Assembly (NCBI GenBank): GCA_016937995.1
Contig: JAFGVM010000037.1
Span: forward strand, 3,437 to 67,436
Source of the DNA: Candidatus Delongbacteria bacterium
Lineage (GTDB): Bacteria > UBA4055
DNA: 64,000 bases
Direction of reading: 5' to 3'
Part shown: piece by piece, positions 47,033 to 54,590 of the stretch
Layout: each line of letters begins with the position of its first letter
How positions within the stretch are numbered: position 1 is the stretch's first letter
Made by a program: the position numbers and the translations under genes
The notes under the pieces: model-generated
Databases searched by the model: none
The model's input: only the letters and a program-made list of their open reading frames with translations
Told to the model about the DNA's origin: nothing

Positions 47033-48406
47033 CTACAAACTGTCTTCTATTTCTTTCAGTTTTAACTGAATGAGCTGCATTATCTCATCAAGTCTTTCCT
47101 GTGTCTGGGCTTCATATCTCTGTACTAAAGCAGGTTGTGTATTTGATGCTCTAAGAAGTCCGAAACCATCATCAAAGATAACCCTTACTCCATCAACATC
47201 ATTTACTTTATATCCTGCATTCTTAAAATATTCTACCGCTTTTTTAACTATCTCAAATTTCTTATTGTCATCACTATCTAATCTTATTTCAGGAGTCATA
47301 ATAGTTTTAGGAACATCTTTCAATAATTCAGAGATCGAACTTCCGGTAGTTGACATAATTTCAAGCAACCTTAAAGAAGCATAAAGTGCATCATCATGTC
47401 CAAAAAATCTGTCTTTGAAGAAAATGTGCCCACTTACCTCTCCACCTAATTCTGCATTTTCTTCTTTCATCTTAGCTTTGATCAGTGAATGACCTGCTTT
47501 CCACATAATTGCTCTTCCGCCAAGCTCTTCAATACCGTCATACATAGTCTGAGAACATTTAACTTCACCTATAATAGTTGCGCCGGGTTTTCTTGAAAGA
47601 ATCTCTTTTGCAAAGATAAGCATAAGATGATCACCAAAAAGCATCTTACCTGTTTCACTTACGATACCAATTCTGTCAGCATCACCGTCATAACCTATAC
47701 CAAGATCAGCTTTTTCTTCCTCAACTTTAGCTATAAGATCGACCATATTCTTAGGAACAGTAGGATCCGGATGATGATTCGGGAACGTTCCATCAGGCTT
47801 TGTATAAAGTTCAATAACTTCCATTCCGAAATGCCTGAATATCTCAGCTGCGACCTCTCCACCTGTACCATTCCCACCATCAACTACGACCTTTAGCTTT
47901 TTTTCGCCCATATTGATATTTTCTTTCATATAACCGAGATAATCTTCCTTAACTGAAATGGTATCAAGTTTACCTTGTGCTCTGTCTGGTGGTTTTGCAT
48001 AAAATTTATTTTCAAGAATGATATTTTTAAGAACTTGTATCTCTTGACCGAAAATAGAAGCAAACTTTGTTGACATCTTCAGTCCATTCATATCTGAAGG
48101 ATTGTGAGAACCTGTTATCATAACACTTGCATCAGCTTCAAGTTTATACTGAGCAAAATATAGCAATGGAGTTGTACATTGACCGATAGAAGTAATATTG
48201 ATACCCAGTTCTATCATTGCTTTTGAAAAAGTACTAAACATATAATCAGCTGAAAGCCTTGCATCAAAACCGATCACACAGTTATTAAGACCTTTTTCTG
48301 CCAGATATGTAGCTAATGCCCTACCGATATTAGTTACAATCTCAGGAGTAAAATCAGCCTCAACTACTCCTCTAATGTCATATTCTCTAAATATATTTTC
48401 GTTCAC
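47033..48406 (-). CDS. phosphomannomutase / phosphoglucomutase
   Basis: The 457-residue protein belongs to the alpha-D-phosphohexomutase family (AlgC/ManB group): substrate-proximal 'FREYDIRG' at the N-terminus, phosphoserine loop TGSHNP with Ser100, Mg loop 'GYDGDADRIG', sugar-binding 'GEVSGHIFFKD' and phosphate-binding 'RASNTQPALVQRYE'. It interconverts hexose 1- and 6-phosphates for nucleotide-sugar and LPS or exopolysaccharide synthesis. Monocistronic, with the ribosome binding site AGGAG about 6 bases upstream of ATG. Confidence 0.92.
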   Translation of the reverse strand: MNENIFREYDIRGVVEADFTPEIVTNIGRALATYLAEKGLNNCVIGFDARLSADYMFSTFSKAMIELGINITSIGQCTTPLLYFAQYKLEADASVMITGSHNPSDMNGLKMSTKFASIFGQEIQVLKNIILENKFYAKPPDRAQGKLDTISVKEDYLGYMKENINMGEKKLKVVVDGGNGTGGEVAAEIFRHFGMEVIELYTKPDGTFPNHHPDPTVPKNMVDLIAKVEEEKADLGIGYDGDADRIGIVSETGKMLFGDHLMLIFAKEILSRKPGATIIGEVKCSQTMYDGIEELGGRAIMWKAGHSLIKAKMKEENAELGGEVSGHIFFKDRFFGHDDALYASLRLLEIMSTTGSSISELLKDVPKTIMTPEIRLDSDDNKKFEIVKKAVEYFKNAGYKVNDVDGVRVIFDDGFGLLRASNTQPALVQRYEAQTQERLDEIMQLIQLKLKEIEDSL

Positions 48407-48545
48407 AACTTATCTCCTTATGTTTTACACTCGCCTAAGATACGAAATGATTAACTGATACACAACTGAAAAATACGTTTTTTATTAAAAGATTATATTC
48501 TCTCACAAAGGGCACTAAGACATGGAGAGTGTTTGTCAGATATGA

Positions 48546-49313
48546 CTATGCACTAGAAAGAGTTAAAGATTTTGTGATAGGATCTAGGGGAACTTTTGGA
48601 GTAGATGTATCACTACGGATTAATCTGTTAATAAATTTATTTTGAAGTTTTTTATACTCATAATATGTTTTTTCATATTCATCAATCTTTTCTATGTTTT
48701 TATAAAAATTTTTCAGATTAAGAATTCCTACTTTCCTTAATCTACCAATTTTAACAGCATATTTCCTGATGTATTTATATCTATCATTCTCAGGAAAAGT
48801 AATTCTAAATTTGTTTTTTTTAATCGCCCAAGCGATTAGCCTTTGTAAAAATTCCCTATCATCGTCTTTAACGTTGAAGAAATCACCTATTGATTGGTAA
48901 ATGCCTTTAGCTCCATGAGCCCTATCACCATAAATGTAATTGCCAGTTTTTATGTAACTTTCATGGGATATAAAATATGGAATTAAGAACTTATTAATAT
49001 AATCTGCAATACTTGTTGAATTGCTTAATTGTAGTAATAAATCAAAATGTGTGGCAACACATAGTGCTTTATTACTTAATTTATGTTCATTTCTAACTTT
49101 ATTTTCAGTTTCATATACTATTGGAGGTACCGTTGGGTAAGTTTTTGCAAATATTATCTTTAGCTTTGGAGCAGAATTTACAACAATATCTTCGTATCTA
49201 GCTTTAATAATAAATCTACCTTTTATCTCAAGATAATCACCTTTATCCACTATTTTCATCTCAGGATAGATCTGTTGAATATATTTGATACTTTTACATA
49301 TTATTTCCCCCAT
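48546..49313 (-). CDS. stand-alone prokaryotic E2-like (UBC-fold) protein of a type II CBASS
   Basis: The 255-residue protein has an E2 core: 'LEIKGRFIIKARYE' strands, 'AKTYPTVPPIVYE' (the E2 YPxxPP element), then His77 and the likely catalytic Cys85 in 'NEHKLSNKALCVATHFD'. A downstream 'YIYGDRAHGAKGIYQ' block is typical of CBASS-associated E2s. There is no E1 or JAB partner, which defines the short type II layout, where an E2 alone conjugates the CD-NTase C-terminus (known from Serratia; here inferred). The gene overlaps the CD-NTase gene by 13 bases. I chose ATG 49313 over an upstream start that would run far into that gene. Confidence 0.75.
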   Translation of the reverse strand: MGEIICKSIKYIQQIYPEMKIVDKGDYLEIKGRFIIKARYEDIVVNSAPKLKIIFAKTYPTVPPIVYETENKVRNEHKLSNKALCVATHFDLLLQLSNSTSIADYINKFLIPYFISHESYIKTGNYIYGDRAHGAKGIYQSIGDFFNVKDDDREFLQRLIAWAIKKNKFRITFPENDRYKYIRKYAVKIGRLRKVGILNLKNFYKNIEKIDEYEKTYYEYKKLQNKFINRLIRSDTSTPKVPLDPITKSLTLSSA

Positions 49314-50233
49314 AGTTTTGCACCTGTTGTGTACTCTTTTATTTCTTCTTGCTCCTGTTCTTTCTTTAATGGGAAACATTCTCCAAATAGCTCTCTAAAT
49401 ACAAGAGAAGCTCGATTACCACTATTATTATTTAGAGCTGTATTAATATCATCTAAAAAATCTTCTAGGTTTGAAATTCTTTTACTTTTCTGATAATCGG
49501 ACAAATCTTTCCACAAATCCTCATATGGTGATACCGGTTTAGAAATACTGTTCTCAGATTTCAATGTATTAATAATTTTATACAGAGTGTTATATAGTGA
49601 TTTGTCGTCTCTATCTTCATTCGGAACAAAGCAGTTAATACCTAAAATAGTTAATTCAATGCTAGTAAAATCAATATCTAAATAATCACGCCATGATTTT
49701 AAGTATCTAATAATCCTTGAATTTTGTTCATTGAATCTATTTTTGTAAAACCAATCCTTAAACTCTTTTGAATCACTATTAATCCATGAATTATCATTTG
49801 TCCTAGCCAAATATGCTTTTCCATCCTTTATAATATAAACCGGGATATCTAAATGATAGTATTTTCTATAATAAACTCTAACACAGCTTGTTTTACTTTC
49901 ACAACCATCCTGAGTATGTCCTACTAATGACTTTAAAATATCCTGATGGATTTCATTAGGTTTAGGCCAAGAATCTGAGTCCTCATCAACATGTCTTAAA
50001 TATAATCCATCGTCAATATCAACTTCAATATCTTCTTTAGGATTCAAAGCGGTATTAATTACAAATGAACCTTGGGATTTAAACAGAGGAATATTAATTT
50101 TCAACTCATCTTTAAAATATGTTCTTATTTTATCCCTTACAGCATTTCGACTTTTTAAAATTTTTTCTTTTTTGGTTTTTGTAAGCTTAATCTTCTTGTT
50201 GAAATCACAAAATTCTTTATGAAAGTTTAACAT
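49301..50233 (-). CDS. DncV-like CD-NTase (CBASS cyclic-nucleotide synthase)
   Basis: The 310-residue protein has the nucleotidyltransferase core GS55-56 in 'SQGSFVINTALNP', metal ligands Asp72 and Asp74 in 'VDIDDGLYLR' and Asp129 in HLDIPVY. 'WINSDSKEFKDWF' and 'RIIRYLKSWRDYL' closely follow Vibrio DncV (WINSDPK..DWF, R.MKAWRD), so it belongs to the DncV branch that makes cyclic dinucleotides on phage infection. The product bases cannot be read from sequence. The C-terminus ends KLWGK: a Gly next to the last residue, a candidate site for E2-mediated linkage. Located 8 bases after cap15. Confidence 0.85.
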   Translation of the reverse strand: MLNFHKEFCDFNKKIKLTKTKKEKILKSRNAVRDKIRTYFKDELKINIPLFKSQGSFVINTALNPKEDIEVDIDDGLYLRHVDEDSDSWPKPNEIHQDILKSLVGHTQDGCESKTSCVRVYYRKYYHLDIPVYIIKDGKAYLARTNDNSWINSDSKEFKDWFYKNRFNEQNSRIIRYLKSWRDYLDIDFTSIELTILGINCFVPNEDRDDKSLYNTLYKIINTLKSENSISKPVSPYEDLWKDLSDYQKSKRISNLEDFLDDINTALNNNSGNRASLVFRELFGECFPLKKEQEQEEIKEYTTGAKLWGK

Positions 50234-50241
50234 TTTACCTC

Positions 50242-50832
50242 CTAATATGTACCTTTTAATTTTTTACCTACAAATTTAGTTTCAATGGTTCCTTTTGTAG
50301 GTTCTTCTCTATTACTAAAATAATATCCTTTTAAATCGTTTTTTCCAATTGAGCAGTTTAATACACAAAAACCTTTATGCTCATTAATAGTATTTGAATT
50401 TTCAATCCCATCATTTTTATAAGCAAAACTAATCTCTATAGATCCGTCAGGTTTCATTATTAAATGTTCATTGATACTTTCAGAACATGATATCAATTCA
50501 TTATCATAGCTAAATTGTCTTATATATACGTAACTTGATGTTTGGGAAATTTCTATTATAATATGAATTTCTTTACCACCGTTGTAGTTTGATTTTAATG
50601 TCCCTTCATACCTTCCAGAAACATCTTTAATATTTAATAGATATGGAAAATATTTCCATAATTTTTTATCGTATGCGATCAATACAAAGGAAATAAAAGC
50701 TATAGCTGATACAGAAGGTATCCAGTTAAACGTTTCAGGAATTAATGATACAATAATCGAGTGTATAGCTATCAACGCAACAATAAAAAATATTAAAGTA
50801 TTAACTTTATAGTATTTAAATGACAATTTCAT
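50242..50832 (-). CDS. Cap15-type CBASS effector (two TM helices + beta-barrel)
   Basis: The 196-residue protein has two N-terminal membrane helices (about 10-30 and 36-55) and a C-terminal lipocalin-like barrel (about 65-196): 'VSGRYEGTLKSNYNGG', 'IIIEISQTSSYVYIRQFS', 'INEHKGFCVLNCSI', 'LKGYYFSNREEPTKGTIE'. This is the Cap15 pattern (G.Y.G.l.S; I.I.QT...i.v....S.S; H.G...L; L.G.Yf..R...G.i). Cap15 oligomerises on cyclic-dinucleotide binding and disrupts the inner membrane to kill the infected cell (known from the family). Just upstream of its synthase gene. Confidence 0.82.
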   Translation of the reverse strand: MKLSFKYYKVNTLIFFIVALIAIHSIIVSLIPETFNWIPSVSAIAFISFVLIAYDKKLWKYFPYLLNIKDVSGRYEGTLKSNYNGGKEIHIIIEISQTSSYVYIRQFSYDNELISCSESINEHLIMKPDGSIEISFAYKNDGIENSNTINEHKGFCVLNCSIGKNDLKGYYFSNREEPTKGTIETKFVGKKLKGTY

Positions 50833-50849
50833 AAATTACCTTTTTGTAT

Positions 50850-51050
50850 TTAACAATGATATTTTCCCTCAATATAGCGATTGTAAAAAGTTCCTTTTGA
50901 TCTAGAATTTATAAATCTTTCAAATACTTCTTGCGGAACTCTACAAAAATCATAAGTCCGTCCTTGTTTAAATGTGATCTTCAATCTCATTATGTCAGGC
51001 TCGTAACCAATTTTCCTGATTGCTCTAGATCTAACTGGAATCATTTCCAT
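50850..51050 (-). CDS. KTSC-domain protein
   Basis: A 66-residue protein that is almost only a KTSC domain: 'IPVRSRAIRKIGYEPD', 'LKITFKQGRTYDFCRVPQEV' and 'SRSKGTFYNRYIEGKY' match the family pattern (SS.i..igYd...L.v.F..G..Y.y..VP..v...f..a.S.G.yfn..I...Y). Small nucleic-acid-binding role is often suggested for the family, without proof. It begins 1 base after rloB stops and ends 17 bases before cap15, so it bridges the RloAB and CBASS halves of the operon. Confidence 0.8.
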   Translation of the reverse strand: MEMIPVRSRAIRKIGYEPDIMRLKITFKQGRTYDFCRVPQEVFERFINSRSKGTFYNRYIEGKYHC

Positions 51051-51051
51051 T

Positions 51052-51648
51052 CTATTTTTTCCCCACTATCTTCTCAACCACCTTATAAACCGTACTCCCA
51101 GCACTCTTCAACCTCTCCTCAAACGATCCTTTATCCTTATCCTTTGCCCTTTTCACAGCAGCATGAATCATTTTATCTGTGATCTGATTTACATCAACAC
51201 CTTTATCATAATTTGGAAGATATTTCTTAAGCTTCTTTGTACAATCCTTAGAATTCTTAACCCCTTTCCCATCTTCAAAATGCAGAAGCAACCAATACTC
51301 AAACTTAGGATTGCTCAAAGCAAAACCGTAATTCTCTTTCTCCTCTGCCCAATCGTGCAATTGCTTCAACTGCTTATCAGTCCACTCATCCCTGTCAACA
51401 ACAAGCCAGGCTTCATCTGTTTCTAAAAGGTTTTCCTCTTTTATATAATCCTTCATTCTCTTTAAAACACTAAGCGGTGAACTCTTTTTCTTACTTTTAA
51501 GACATTTCACTCTGATAATTGAACCTCTATTATCAAAGATCGAGAAATATTCCTGTTCAGTCTTTTGACCTTCAGTAGAGATGATATAAAGCTTTTTATA
51601 CCTCCTCGTTCCTGTCTTACGTTTAAACGATCTTCTTTTAGGCGGCAT
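51052..51648 (-). CDS. rloB: RloB-family protein (putative Toprim-like nuclease)
   Basis: The 198-residue protein matches RloB: basic N-terminus ([19 protein letters not shown]), 'LYIISTEGQKTEQEYFSIF' with the acidic TEG element, 'AWLVVDRDEW' with the DxD element, and 'NYGFALSNPKFEYWLLLHF' (the hallmark SNPxFExWLLLHF shortened). The EG and DxD pair suggests a Toprim-like metal site. With RloA it resembles the AbiL (AbiLi/AbiLii) abortive-infection pair. The ATG overlaps the rloA stop by one base (TAATG); a TTG two codons earlier is less likely. Confidence 0.85.
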   Translation of the reverse strand: MPPKRRSFKRKTGTRRYKKLYIISTEGQKTEQEYFSIFDNRGSIIRVKCLKSKKKSSPLSVLKRMKDYIKEENLLETDEAWLVVDRDEWTDKQLKQLHDWAEEKENYGFALSNPKFEYWLLLHFEDGKGVKNSKDCTKKLKKYLPNYDKGVDVNQITDKMIHAAVKRAKDKDKGSFEERLKSAGSTVYKVVEKIVGKK

Positions 51649-52976
51649 TAACAATTACCTTTTTTATTTTGCAATGTCTTCTTCAAGTTTATCTTAGGAG
51701 TACCACCTAATCTGCCCTGCAGATAGCTTTTTCTGATATCCTTATCGTATCTGATCTCTTTATATTCAATAAATGAACGTAAACTTGACATACCTTTCTC
51801 ATCTCTTTCAGCGATCCACATCTCATCTCTGCGAAGCAGTTCCTGATCCATCAAAAGAAGATCATGAGTAGTGAACAACAATTGAGAACGGCTATCCTTG
51901 CTACAATTACACAAAAACACTTCGATCAGCTGTTTTGTCAAAGTAGTATGTAAACTTCTGTTCACTTCATCTATTATATAGACCTTATTATTTTTAGTCA
52001 TTGACAGATCCAGAAATGCAGGTAAAAGATCAATTACTCTGAGTGATCCATCTGATTCCTGATGTAATTCAAACTTTTCTTCATCACCATCCGTTTTGGA
52101 ATGATATGCAACTAACTTTTTTGCCTGCAATTCATTCTTCTCTCTTGAAATAATATATCTTTCGTTCGTAACCATTGAATGCAAACGAACCGCTGTGTTT
52201 TTTGTAACGTCCTCTCTTAGTTTATTCCTAAGATCTTCCGGTAACGGTATATTTTCAAAAGGAAAACTGATATATTCAATATGTTTTATGCCTGTATCAA
52301 GTGTCGCAAGCATATCATTCATTCTTTTAAACAGAGGATTTTTATCGTCAAGAAACTGTTCATATTGGCCAAATCGTGTATCCGGTGCAATAAGTACAAG
52401 AGTATATTTGAACCAGTTATAAACAGGTGCAAATGTATTAACATTCTGAGAAACACTGTTAGTTAAAAATAACTGATTCGCTCTTGTACCTTTAAATGCA
52501 AATTGCAACAGTCCATCTTTCGTAAGAGGAATATGCATATTAGCTTTATCTTTCTTTCGATGATACAGCATTTTCTCACTGGTACTTGTAATCTGAACCA
52601 GTTTTTCTTCAAGTACTTCTTTTTGAGAAACAGAAAAACTAAATTCATATATTTTTTCATCGATCAGCATTTCAAGTTTAAATTTTGACGGCTTTTTAAT
52701 ACTTTGTTTATCAAGTCTGAACGGTTCAGTAAGGATCATACTTTCAGGTCTAGTTCCATCAACTACAAAATCTTTTATAAAAGATAGTGCCTGAAACAGA
52801 TTTGTTTTACCTGATGCATTACCGCCATAAATAGAAGCAACAGGTAAAATTCTTGTCTGATATTTACTTAATTTCGGTACTCTGTCCCCATGTTGTCTTT
52901 CCTTGCTCGCTACCATCGAAAATTCAGAAGATTCTTTAAATGACAACCAGTTCTCCACTTTTAAACTTATAAGCAT
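51648..52976 (-). CDS. rloA: RloA-family AAA ATPase
   Basis: The 442-residue protein has an ABC/SMC-like ATPase head: '[20 protein letters not shown]' at the start, Walker [10 protein letters not shown] (51-59), Walker B with '[19 protein letters not shown]', the switch His in '[20 protein letters not shown]', and the C-terminal '[12 protein letters not shown]', all typical of RloA. Together with RloB it forms a putative sensor ATPase plus effector nuclease for phage defence. First gene of the six-gene operon; AAGGA lies 9 bases before its ATG and a good promoter about 40 bases upstream. Confidence 0.86.
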
Positions 52977-53014
52977 TTTTCCAATCCTTTATGTTATTTT
53001 TTCTCCCCCAATTT

Positions 53015-53045
53015 CAAAGATACAATATTATTTTTCTTTTGTCAA
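53015..53045 (-). promoter_or_regulatory. promoter of the defence operon
   Basis: Read on the minus strand: TTGACA (53045-53040), 17 bases, TATCTTTG (53022-53015). This fits both sigma-70 (-35 perfect) and the Bacteroidota TAnnTTTG form. The expected start site is about 30 bases before the rloA ATG. No other promoter of this quality was seen inside the six-gene operon. Confidence 0.6.
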
Positions 53046-53511
53046 TTGTTTAATGAGATTATTTCTCTTAATTCATTATTTTTATTCAGTCGCATGCCTA
53101 TTTTACAATACTTTGCAAGCCATACAGCTTTGCGTTCCTCTTATCATATATTTTTCGAACGGTATGAGATCAAGTCTTAGTGAGTTAATCGAAGACTTAG
53201 ACTTGATTATTTTTACTTACTTTGCACTTAACGTAATTTTGGTTACCTGACGAAAGTGACTTTTGATTGTTGTGCAAAATACATTTCTTGATATTTGGGT
53301 AGACATGGATTTTGAAATGAAAAGTACCGGAAGTCCCAAAATTAGCGTTCGTGCTGCCCTTTTCTTTCCTCCCGATTTATCGGGATTTTGGGCAAGCAAA
53401 AGAAAGCTGAAGACATCATTTAATACTCCTAGATACCCGGATCAAGTCCGAGAATGACATTTATCCTAGCGGGATATAACTCCCCTAACCACAGGTTTCA
53501 ACCTGTGGGAT

Positions 53512-53539
53512 AAAAAAAAGGGCGTAATAAATTACACCC
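53512..53539 (-). terminator. rho-independent terminator of trpS
   Basis: On the minus strand GGGTGTAAT pairs with ATTACGCCC (one mismatch) around TT, followed by a run of eight T. It lies 25 bases past the trpS stop. Confidence 0.8.
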
Positions 53540-53564
53540 CTACATCAACAATATTTGACCAAAA

Positions 53565-54590
53565 TTACCTTGCAGGTGCAACCAACCCAACTTTCTTATA
53601 TACCTTCGAAAGTAACTTGTATGCCGAACTCTGTACGTTCGCAGCTCCCTGCTTAAGAATCTGATCAAGATATTTTTTATCCTTTAGAAGTTCATCGTGC
53701 TTTTCCTTGATAGGTCTGAGAGTCTCAACAACAATTTCAGAAAGGTCTTTCTTAAAATCTCCGTATCCAGAATTAACATATTTCTTTTCGATCTCAGAGA
53801 TCTCTGTATCAGTCAATGTAGAATAAATTGTGAGCAGGTTATTGATCCCGGCTTTTTCAGGATTACTTTGATCATATCTGATCTCCATATCTGAATCTGT
53901 AACAGCACTTTTGATCTTTTTAGCTGTAATATTAAGATCCTCTGTAAGGATAATAGTTCCTTTAGGTGATTCAGCGGATTTACTCATTTTATTCTCAGGA
54001 TGCTGCAGGTCCATTATCCTCGCTCCCTGCTTAGGAATGATAGCTTCCGGAATATTAAAAGTAGGTGAGTAAGTATAGTTGAATTTTTCAGCAATATCTC
54101 TTGACAGTTCAAGATGCTGTTTCTGATCATCTCCGATAGGAATCAGATTTGCATTATATAACAATATATCAGCAGCCATTAAGACCGGATAAGCAAAAAG
54201 TCCAACATTTATAAATGTTCCTTCCTTTGCAGACTTATCTTTATACTGTGTCATTCTGTTCAACTGACCCATTCCGGTCAAAGTGTTCAATATCCAGGTG
54301 AGTTCAGTATGTCCTGTAATATGAGACTGAACAAATATATTAGATTTCTCAGGATCCAGACCTACAGCAAGATAAAGTGCCAGCATTGAATAAGTTCTTT
54401 CCCTCAATTCACTTGGAACCTGAGGAACAGTCAGAGCATGAAGATCAACGATTATATAATTTTTTGTATAATCCTGATATTTATCCTGCATATTCACAAA
54501 ATTCTTCATTGCTCCGATATAATTACCCAGAGTCAGATTATTTGTAGGCTGAATACCGCTTAATATTGTTTTCTTTTCTGTATTTTCCAT
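53565..54590 (-). CDS. trpS: tryptophanyl-tRNA synthetase
   Basis: The 341-residue class I synthetase has the HIGH-equivalent 'LTLGNYIGAM' near the N-terminus ('SGIQPTNNLTLGNYIG'), 'LIPIGDDQKQHLELSRDIA' and the KMSKS loop 'ENKMSKSAESPKGTI'. Length and motifs match bacterial TrpS. It attaches Trp to tRNA-Trp. No T-box or trp leader is seen upstream. Downstream of pyrK on the same strand, with an 80-base gap holding a hairpin. Confidence 0.95.
   Translation of the reverse strand: MENTEKKTILSGIQPTNNLTLGNYIGAMKNFVNMQDKYQDYTKNYIIVDLHALTVPQVPSELRERTYSMLALYLAVGLDPEKSNIFVQSHITGHTELTWILNTLTGMGQLNRMTQYKDKSAKEGTFINVGLFAYPVLMAADILLYNANLIPIGDDQKQHLELSRDIAEKFNYTYSPTFNIPEAIIPKQGARIMDLQHPENKMSKSAESPKGTIILTEDLNITAKKIKSAVTDSDMEIRYDQSNPEKAGINNLLTIYSTLTDTEISEIEKKYVNSGYGDFKKDLSEIVVETLRPIKEKHDELLKDKKYLDQILKQGAANVQSSAYKLLSKVYKKVGLVAPAR

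Follow-up and report, generated by a model that had tools for sequence, protein, structure and literature searches.

A probably swappable defence island between trpS and pmm in Candidatus Delongbacteria, with RloAB stacked against a short type II CBASS

The DNA analysed here (the window) is a 64,000-nucleotide stretch of contig JAFGVM010000037.1 from a Candidatus Delongbacteria genome. It contains a defence island with six open reading frames (ORFs), all on the minus strand, in the order rloA, rloB, KTSC, cap15, CD-NTase (cGAS/DncV-like nucleotidyltransferase) and E2. The locus looks like a swappable defence island and not like a single new six-gene machine. In the favoured reading, to which a probability of about three in four is assigned, two independent abortive-infection systems, RloAB and a short type II cyclic-oligonucleotide-based antiphage signalling system (CBASS), are stacked in a genus-level hotspot between the housekeeping genes trpS and pmm and share their expression. 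As each half looks complete, shared expression with separate action is the preferred reading. An obligate six-gene system is unsupported, since the cargo behind RloAB varies and the Cap15–CD-NTase–E2 set occurs without RloAB.

The trpS–pmm interval and the cargo behind RloAB

The island (48407..53564) is bounded by trpS (53565-54590) and pmm (47033-48406), and the trpS–pmm spacing of 5,158 bp (an island of ∼5.16 kb) is found in a host draft genome of 2.75 Mb. The comparison set consists of 13 genomes of the host phylum, the window genome (G000) included. Nine genomes outside the genus contain both flanking genes. In seven of these (G004–G010), trpS and pmm lie 24–35 bp apart without an island, and in the other two the genes are on separate contigs. 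In the two further species of the genus, the occupants of the interval differ. Behind trpS, G012 carries an iron-type alcohol dehydrogenase, RloA, RloB and an integron-cassette protein, after which the contig ends. In G011, a pair of small genes resembling a ParE/RelE-type toxin–antitoxin pair comes after trpS, and ORF6N-like and SIR2-like genes precede pmm (both sets read by eye; the SIR2-like gene has no confident Pfam name). Because the site is empty in other genera and its neighbours differ within the genus, the trpS–pmm interval is a variable spot in the genus and the six-gene island is an acquisition. A 41-bp stretch upstream of rloA (window 53124-53164) is 90% identical to G011 L120:1274-1314, which sits between the ORF6N-like and SIR2-like genes of the G011 island adjoining pmm. 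The shared stretch is a possible recombination seam.

The RloAB pair of G012 is closely related to that of the window (88% identity for RloA and 82% for RloB). DNA homology between the two genomes begins immediately upstream of rloA and breaks off at window position 51064, roughly four codons short of the rloB stop. Close RloAB orthologues carry differing cargo at −1 to +22 bp: KTSC–Cap15–CD-NTase–E2 in the window, an SMC/AAA_13-like ATPase of 719 amino acids (aa) and then KTSC in G011, and a 434-aa protein followed by a TIR-like protein in G009, a member of another genus. In G003, a convergent unrelated gene lies behind RloB. The base composition breaks behind rloB, at the same seam as the loss of G012 homology. 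The G+C content is 33.6% in RloA and 36.8% in RloB (34.5% in the window), and 31.8% in KTSC, 25.9% in Cap15, 28.8% in the CD-NTase and 28.0% in E2. Judged from these sequence comparisons, RloAB is the older resident and the CBASS half a later addition. The gene behind RloB in G012 (L107:13780-14139) encodes an M1E1E6-like integron-cassette protein (73.9 bits), hinting at how cargo arrives. With its empty site, older RloAB and changing downstream modules in one genus, the island is a clear case of defence-operon assembly.

Proteins, junctions and promoter of the operon

The rloA gene (51648..52976, minus strand) encodes a 442-aa AbiLi-type, OLD-like ABC ATPase with an AAA_21 domain (Pfam AAA_21, 132.8 bits with a cut-off of 27; PADLOC AbiLi, 260 bits). 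RloA contains a Walker A motif and a Walker B-like IIDE sequence, and residues G51, N53, G56, K57, D336 and E337 are invariant in nine RloA sequences. The rloB gene (51052..51654, minus strand) encodes an AbiLii-type, predicted Toprim nuclease of 200 aa from a TTG start or 198 aa from an ATG at 51648 (PF13707, 129.1 bits with a cut-off of 31.5; PADLOC AbiLii, 85.7 bits). An AbiLi-type ATPase is thus followed by an RloB-family protein, as in AbiL/RloAB systems. In RloB, E33 and D87 are invariant and E28 and D89 are at least 90% conserved across 24 sequences. Sequence and profile searches of the PDB with RloB gave no match, and its structure was therefore predicted. The AlphaFold2 model (predicted local distance difference test score of 88.5) aligns best with the Toprim domains of OLD nucleases (6p74, Z 8.1; 6nk8, Z 6.8), and the unrelated 2p62 also reaches 8.1. 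This Toprim signal comes from the VIA re-alignment, in whose rows AriB is absent; Foldseek alone returned no match with E <0.001. Based on the fold alignment and the conserved acidic residues, the natural reading of the model is that RloB is a Toprim nuclease restrained by the RloA ATPase, as in the phage anti-restriction-induced system (PARIS).

The CBASS half begins with cap15 (50242..50832, minus strand), whose 196-aa product is a CBASS effector with two hydrophobic segments (hydropathy peaks close to residues 13 and 35) and a cyclic-nucleotide receptor β-barrel (PF18153, Cap15_CD_rec, 49.7 bits with a cut-off of 31.2; PADLOC 2TM effector, 92 bits). The 310-aa CD-NTase (49301..50233, minus strand) matches NCBIfam cGAS (187.6 bits, cut-off 150) and DncV-like_NTFase (68.1 bits, cut-off 24.9), and its nearest PDB chain is 7ljo (E 2e-33). 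Its catalytic motif is intact, with Q54, G55, S56, D72, D74 and D129 invariant in five homologues. The last gene (48546..49313, minus strand) encodes a 255-aa E2-like conjugating enzyme (best PADLOC E2 model, 99.5 bits), which also matches eukaryotic E2 proteins at E ∼1e-4; no Pfam E2 family scored above its cut-off. No E1 or JAB gene is found at the locus, where the island closes with E2 and pmm follows. An intact CD-NTase, an effector of the cyclic-nucleotide-gated type and an E2 without E1 or JAB make up a short type II CBASS. The E2 cysteine lies in an LC(V/L)A motif conserved with the E2 of a spirochaete locus (L007), and the CD-NTases of the two loci have a C-terminal K-L/P-W-G tail in common. 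If this tail is the conjugated end, a shared tail would be expected. A search of the other 12 genomes of the phylum did not find the window CD-NTase, and no CD-NTase was found in viral contigs by a single-protein scan.

The six genes are tightly packed. The rloA/rloB junction is −1 with the ATG start or −7 with the TTG start, and the following junctions are +1 (rloB/KTSC), +17 (KTSC/cap15), +8 (cap15/CD-NTase) and −13 (CD-NTase/E2). These measurements agree with the gene order, strand and spacing given in an earlier note on this DNA, and each ORF is named by a curated profile in line with the identities proposed there. The rloA promoter that the note had pointed out is located at 53045-53017 on the minus strand (TTGACA-N17-TATCTT). 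The aligned regions upstream of rloA contain TTGAC-N17-TAT-N-TT in each of G000, G012 and G009, and the counterparts in two relatives make this site more than a consensus match. An inverted repeat, GAGAAATAATCTC (53055..53067), lies directly upstream of the −35 element, and similar GAGA...TCTC repeats occupy the aligned position in G012 and G009. This repeat is a possible operator. A terminator-like hairpin after trpS (53518..53541, minus strand) may part trpS from the rloA transcript, but it is weak evidence because the count of terminator-like sites is near chance (2 found versus 1.6 expected). No terminator-like site was detected within the operon on the operon strand. The Bacteroidota-type motif TTG-N-TAnnTTTG has two minus-strand sites near the operon, one of which coincides with the rloA promoter, and no other inside the operon. 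The tight one-promoter layout described earlier is borne out by the six co-directional genes, the similar promoter in relatives and the uninterrupted interior, and read-through from the rloA promoter probably accounts for transcription of the CBASS half.

It is unlikely that the two systems are adjacent but separately transcribed, with a CBASS promoter within rloB or KTSC. A TTGAGA-N17-TAGAAT match is present at the rloB/KTSC seam (51077-51049), and the CBASS half, foreign in composition, presumably worked elsewhere before. However, the match overlaps the KTSC start codon, and gaps of 1, 17, 8 and −13 bp afford no intergenic space. Generic promoter-like matches in the region are also at chance level (27 found versus 28.7 expected); promoter-site counts were therefore not used as evidence, save for the site with counterparts in relatives.

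RloAB, CBASS and KTSC in other genomes

The survey for RloB covered the host phylum together with 396 Bacteroidia-class, 388 cyanobacterial, 391 Clostridia-class and 296 Spirochaetota genomes; genomes were sampled by class or phylum, and the counts carry no correction for phylogeny. CBASS near RloB was sought by tblastn with few seeds, using ∼1.5-kb flanks for 89 loci, and distant CBASS types were possibly missed for this reason. RloA accompanies RloB nearly always in the surveyed loci, and RloAB alone is the usual state (most of ∼155 loci). The downstream neighbour was resolved at 155 RloB loci; 39 of these have an ORF of 60 aa or more on the same strand within 40 bp, mostly an unrelated gene. 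Tight defence partners examined with Pfam or PADLOC comprise type I restriction genes (HsdS in L293 and L306, HsdR in L295 and L308), a TOTE primase gene (L303), a MazG–TIR–TIR–SLOG set (L164) and CBASS (L186). At L303:2286-3780, RloB overlaps a TOTE conflict-system primase gene by 4 bp, and L164:2428-6727 is one tight directon of RloA–RloB–MazG–TIR–TIR–SLOG(LD_cluster2) with a spacing of +12 bp behind RloB. RloAB in viral contigs mostly takes the form of a two-gene cassette that lacks defence cargo. Phage-borne copies (L345, L357, L358 and others) were seen by eye beside capsid, portal or terminase-like genes that apparently belong to P2-like prophages, a placement like that of known phage defence hotspots.

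RloAB adjoins CBASS in three lineages outside the window, and the CBASS is type II in all of them. Two Paludibacteraceae loci (L046 and L053) are arranged as rloA–rloB–(+17)–patatin–CD-NTase–Cap2–Cap3. L186 is arranged as rloA–rloB–(+21)–CD-NTase–Cap2–(JAB fused to NucC), and its relative L185 retains RloAB, a Cap2 remnant and the JAB–NucC gene. An Agrobacterium plasmid (L220) contains patatin–CD-NTase–Cap2–(+220)–rloA–rloB. The RloA proteins of L046, L186 and L220 are only 26–32% identical to the window RloA, and the joins are therefore probably independent. RloAB thus joins type II CBASS repeatedly, besides restriction and other systems. The window was given and L046 and L053 were found through their CD-NTase; only L186 and L185 come from the RloB sample that was not selected for CBASS.

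The comparison from the CBASS side covered 83 loci that contain a related CD-NTase. Two of them, both of one lineage, have RloAB packed tightly upstream, and at least eight, in Bacteroidota, have type I restriction genes in that position within the same directon. In L035, L039, L043, L044, L049, L064/L073, L065 and L076, hsdM, hsdS or hsdR runs into a patatin–CD-NTase operon, often with an overlap of a few bases; L043 reads hsdM–hsdS–patatin–CD-NTase, and hsdR precedes patatin in L065. Beyond the profile-checked loci, the restriction genes were recognised by eye from their similarity in sequence. Close co-directional packing against CBASS is therefore common (at least eight restriction loci) and does not in itself point to a joint mechanism. 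Cap15–CD-NTase–E2 without RloAB is present at nine or more loci (L026, L037, L048, L067, L068, L070, L071, L082 and L085). Tandem genes for related DncV-like CD-NTases, ∼0.5–0.7 kb apart in one CBASS operon, were observed in L035, L043, L044, L047, L049, L060, L061, L064, L073 and L076 and also on plasmids L005 and L006. A small gene separates the tandem CD-NTases in the operons looked at, making this a recurrent two-cyclase CBASS layout.

The full six-gene order, whose conservation the earlier note had proposed to check, recurs in none of the 83 CD-NTase loci, the surveyed RloB loci or the other 12 phylum genomes. An obligate six-gene system was rejected, as the six genes are not conserved together, the cargo is swapped and the halves occur apart. 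The same finding, RloAB with other or no cargo and CBASS without RloAB, leaves the composite system with a shared trigger that had been suggested for this locus without support. It is distinctly unlikely that RloAB and CBASS form an integrated composite that shares a trigger or in which the two regulate each other, for example with inhibition of CBASS setting off RloAB (much as PARIS responds to anti-restriction proteins) or with RloA or RloB as the target to which E2 attaches the CD-NTase tail. Such a composite would be consistent with the four lineages, representing three kinds of effector, in which RloAB abuts type II CBASS, namely the window (Cap15, +1 to KTSC), L046/L053 (patatin, +17), L186 (NucC–JAB, +21) and L220 (patatin, +220), and with an E2 or E1–E2 in all four. 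In contrast, the ∼140-locus RloB sample not picked for CBASS yields one case (L186, with its decayed sister L185), type I restriction genes precede the CD-NTase more often than RloAB does, and the closest RloAB orthologues carry non-CBASS cargo.

Three points weigh against two independent, co-expressed systems in a hotspot. The three further lineages could mean functional cooperation and not chance stacking. Either rloB or KTSC may contain a promoter, which makes co-transcription no more than probable. Finally, the draft assemblies of G011 and G012 end close to key junctions, and the G011 RloAB contig, at only 4.2 kb, may lie outside the trpS–pmm hotspot. A role of RloAB as a recurrent functional partner of type II CBASS, serving as a guard or back-up effector triggered by attack on the cyclase or its conjugation, is a long shot; if true, it would explain RloAB against E2-bearing CBASS in four lineages with different effectors. 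Whether stacked suicide systems cooperate or are merely co-expressed is directly testable with the 4.4-kb operon.

The gene at the seam (50850..51050, minus strand) encodes a stand-alone KTSC-domain protein of 66 aa (PF13619, 73.5 bits with a cut-off of 25), whose PDB relatives are 4rgi, 7x8c and the C-terminus of the HerA helicase 8wiv. The earlier idea that KTSC links the two halves is not borne out: KTSC adjoins none of the 83 related CD-NTases, and in the surveyed loci it is near RloAB within this genus only and beside no RloB outside it. Most likely, KTSC came along as a hitch-hiker, and it is very improbable that it works as an adaptor through which nucleic-acid recognition is coupled to the CBASS half. 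KTSC relatives accompany HerA helicases in defence loci (HerA–KTSC in G008, SIR2–HerA–KTSC–SLATT in L222 and the fusion in 8wiv), and KTSC has been called DNA-binding (PMC9503650). Moreover, small DUF2188 or HNH genes directly before the CBASS effector (L044:6729-6980, L056:6715-6960, L085:6841-7071 and L038:7118-7366) occupy the place that KTSC has in the window, and an accessory role is possible on this ground. However, besides its absence from the loci above, the closest KTSC relative, a Burkholderia protein with 53% identity, is encoded by an orphan gene that follows an integrase-like gene, and the island lacks HerA. A HerA–KTSC system was likewise rejected, as no HerA is found among the island ORFs.

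Proposed action and comparison with known systems

Two stacked systems could have arisen and act as follows. RloAB would have been resident first, with its own promoter, and a short type II CBASS would have been added directly behind rloB, with the KTSC gene arriving with CBASS or by separate insertion. By homology, RloA would sense a phage product or DNA state and release RloB, which would then cleave nucleic acid, as the PARIS relative does with tRNA. Independently of RloAB, E2 would prime the CD-NTase via its C-terminal tail, phage infection would switch the CD-NTase on and the cyclic nucleotide would open the Cap15 membrane effector. By analogy, the CBASS half should act like other short type II systems. 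Under shared expression, suicide defence would be two-layered, so that a phage able to block one system would still face the other.

No paper pairing RloA/RloB with CBASS was found in the open-access literature searched. The earlier claim that the combination is undescribed is not contradicted there, and the RloAB–CBASS combination seems undescribed in searchable papers; its kind, in which one defence system is nested against a second within a single directon, is already described (PMC11341690, PMC12839542). The stacking is of a known kind, given RloAB–CBASS in three other lineages, restriction genes before CBASS and PARIS in bacteriophage exclusion (BREX) loci.

The two-gene RloAB cassette resembles AbiL/RloAB in its AbiLi and AbiLii model matches, RloB family and −1 overlap, but RloAB is usually alone, whereas CBASS comes behind it in the window. 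The rlo genes (R-linked ORFs) occur within Campylobacter type I restriction loci. RloAB in type I restriction operons (L293, L306, L295 and L308) likewise lies −4 to +31 bp from other defence genes, although the partner there is a restriction system and not CBASS. HerA–KTSC pairs (L222 and G008) contain the same small KTSC domain, but the window KTSC is an orphan without HerA. The CBASS half has the DncV-like CD-NTase, E2, absence of E1 and JAB and effector-first order of short type II CBASS; it differs in being preceded by KTSC and RloAB and in its Cap15 effector, the nearest CD-NTase relative (L007) having patatin. For systems with CD-NTase and E2 only, cyclase–cyclase conjugation has been proposed, in work cited in PMC11153139.

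A close parallel to the stacking is PARIS (ariAB), which is embedded in the BREX island of Salmonella D23580 (PMC11341690), and TOPRIM/OLD-ABC backup effectors are found in BREX loci of >1000 taxa (PMC12839542). In both PARIS and the window, an OLD-like ABC ATPase and a Toprim nuclease (predicted for RloB) form a pair inside or against another same-strand defence system, but the window partner is CBASS and its nuclease is RloB (PF13707), not DUF4435. RloA has the AAA_15 or AAA_21 domain of an AriA-type ATPase (AAA_21). The detection rule for PARIS asks for an AriB of the DUF4435 family (PF14491) (PMC9122126); DUF4435 is not among the RloB matches, and the locus is therefore not PARIS by definition. 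In PARIS, AriB cleaves tRNA (PMC12409363).

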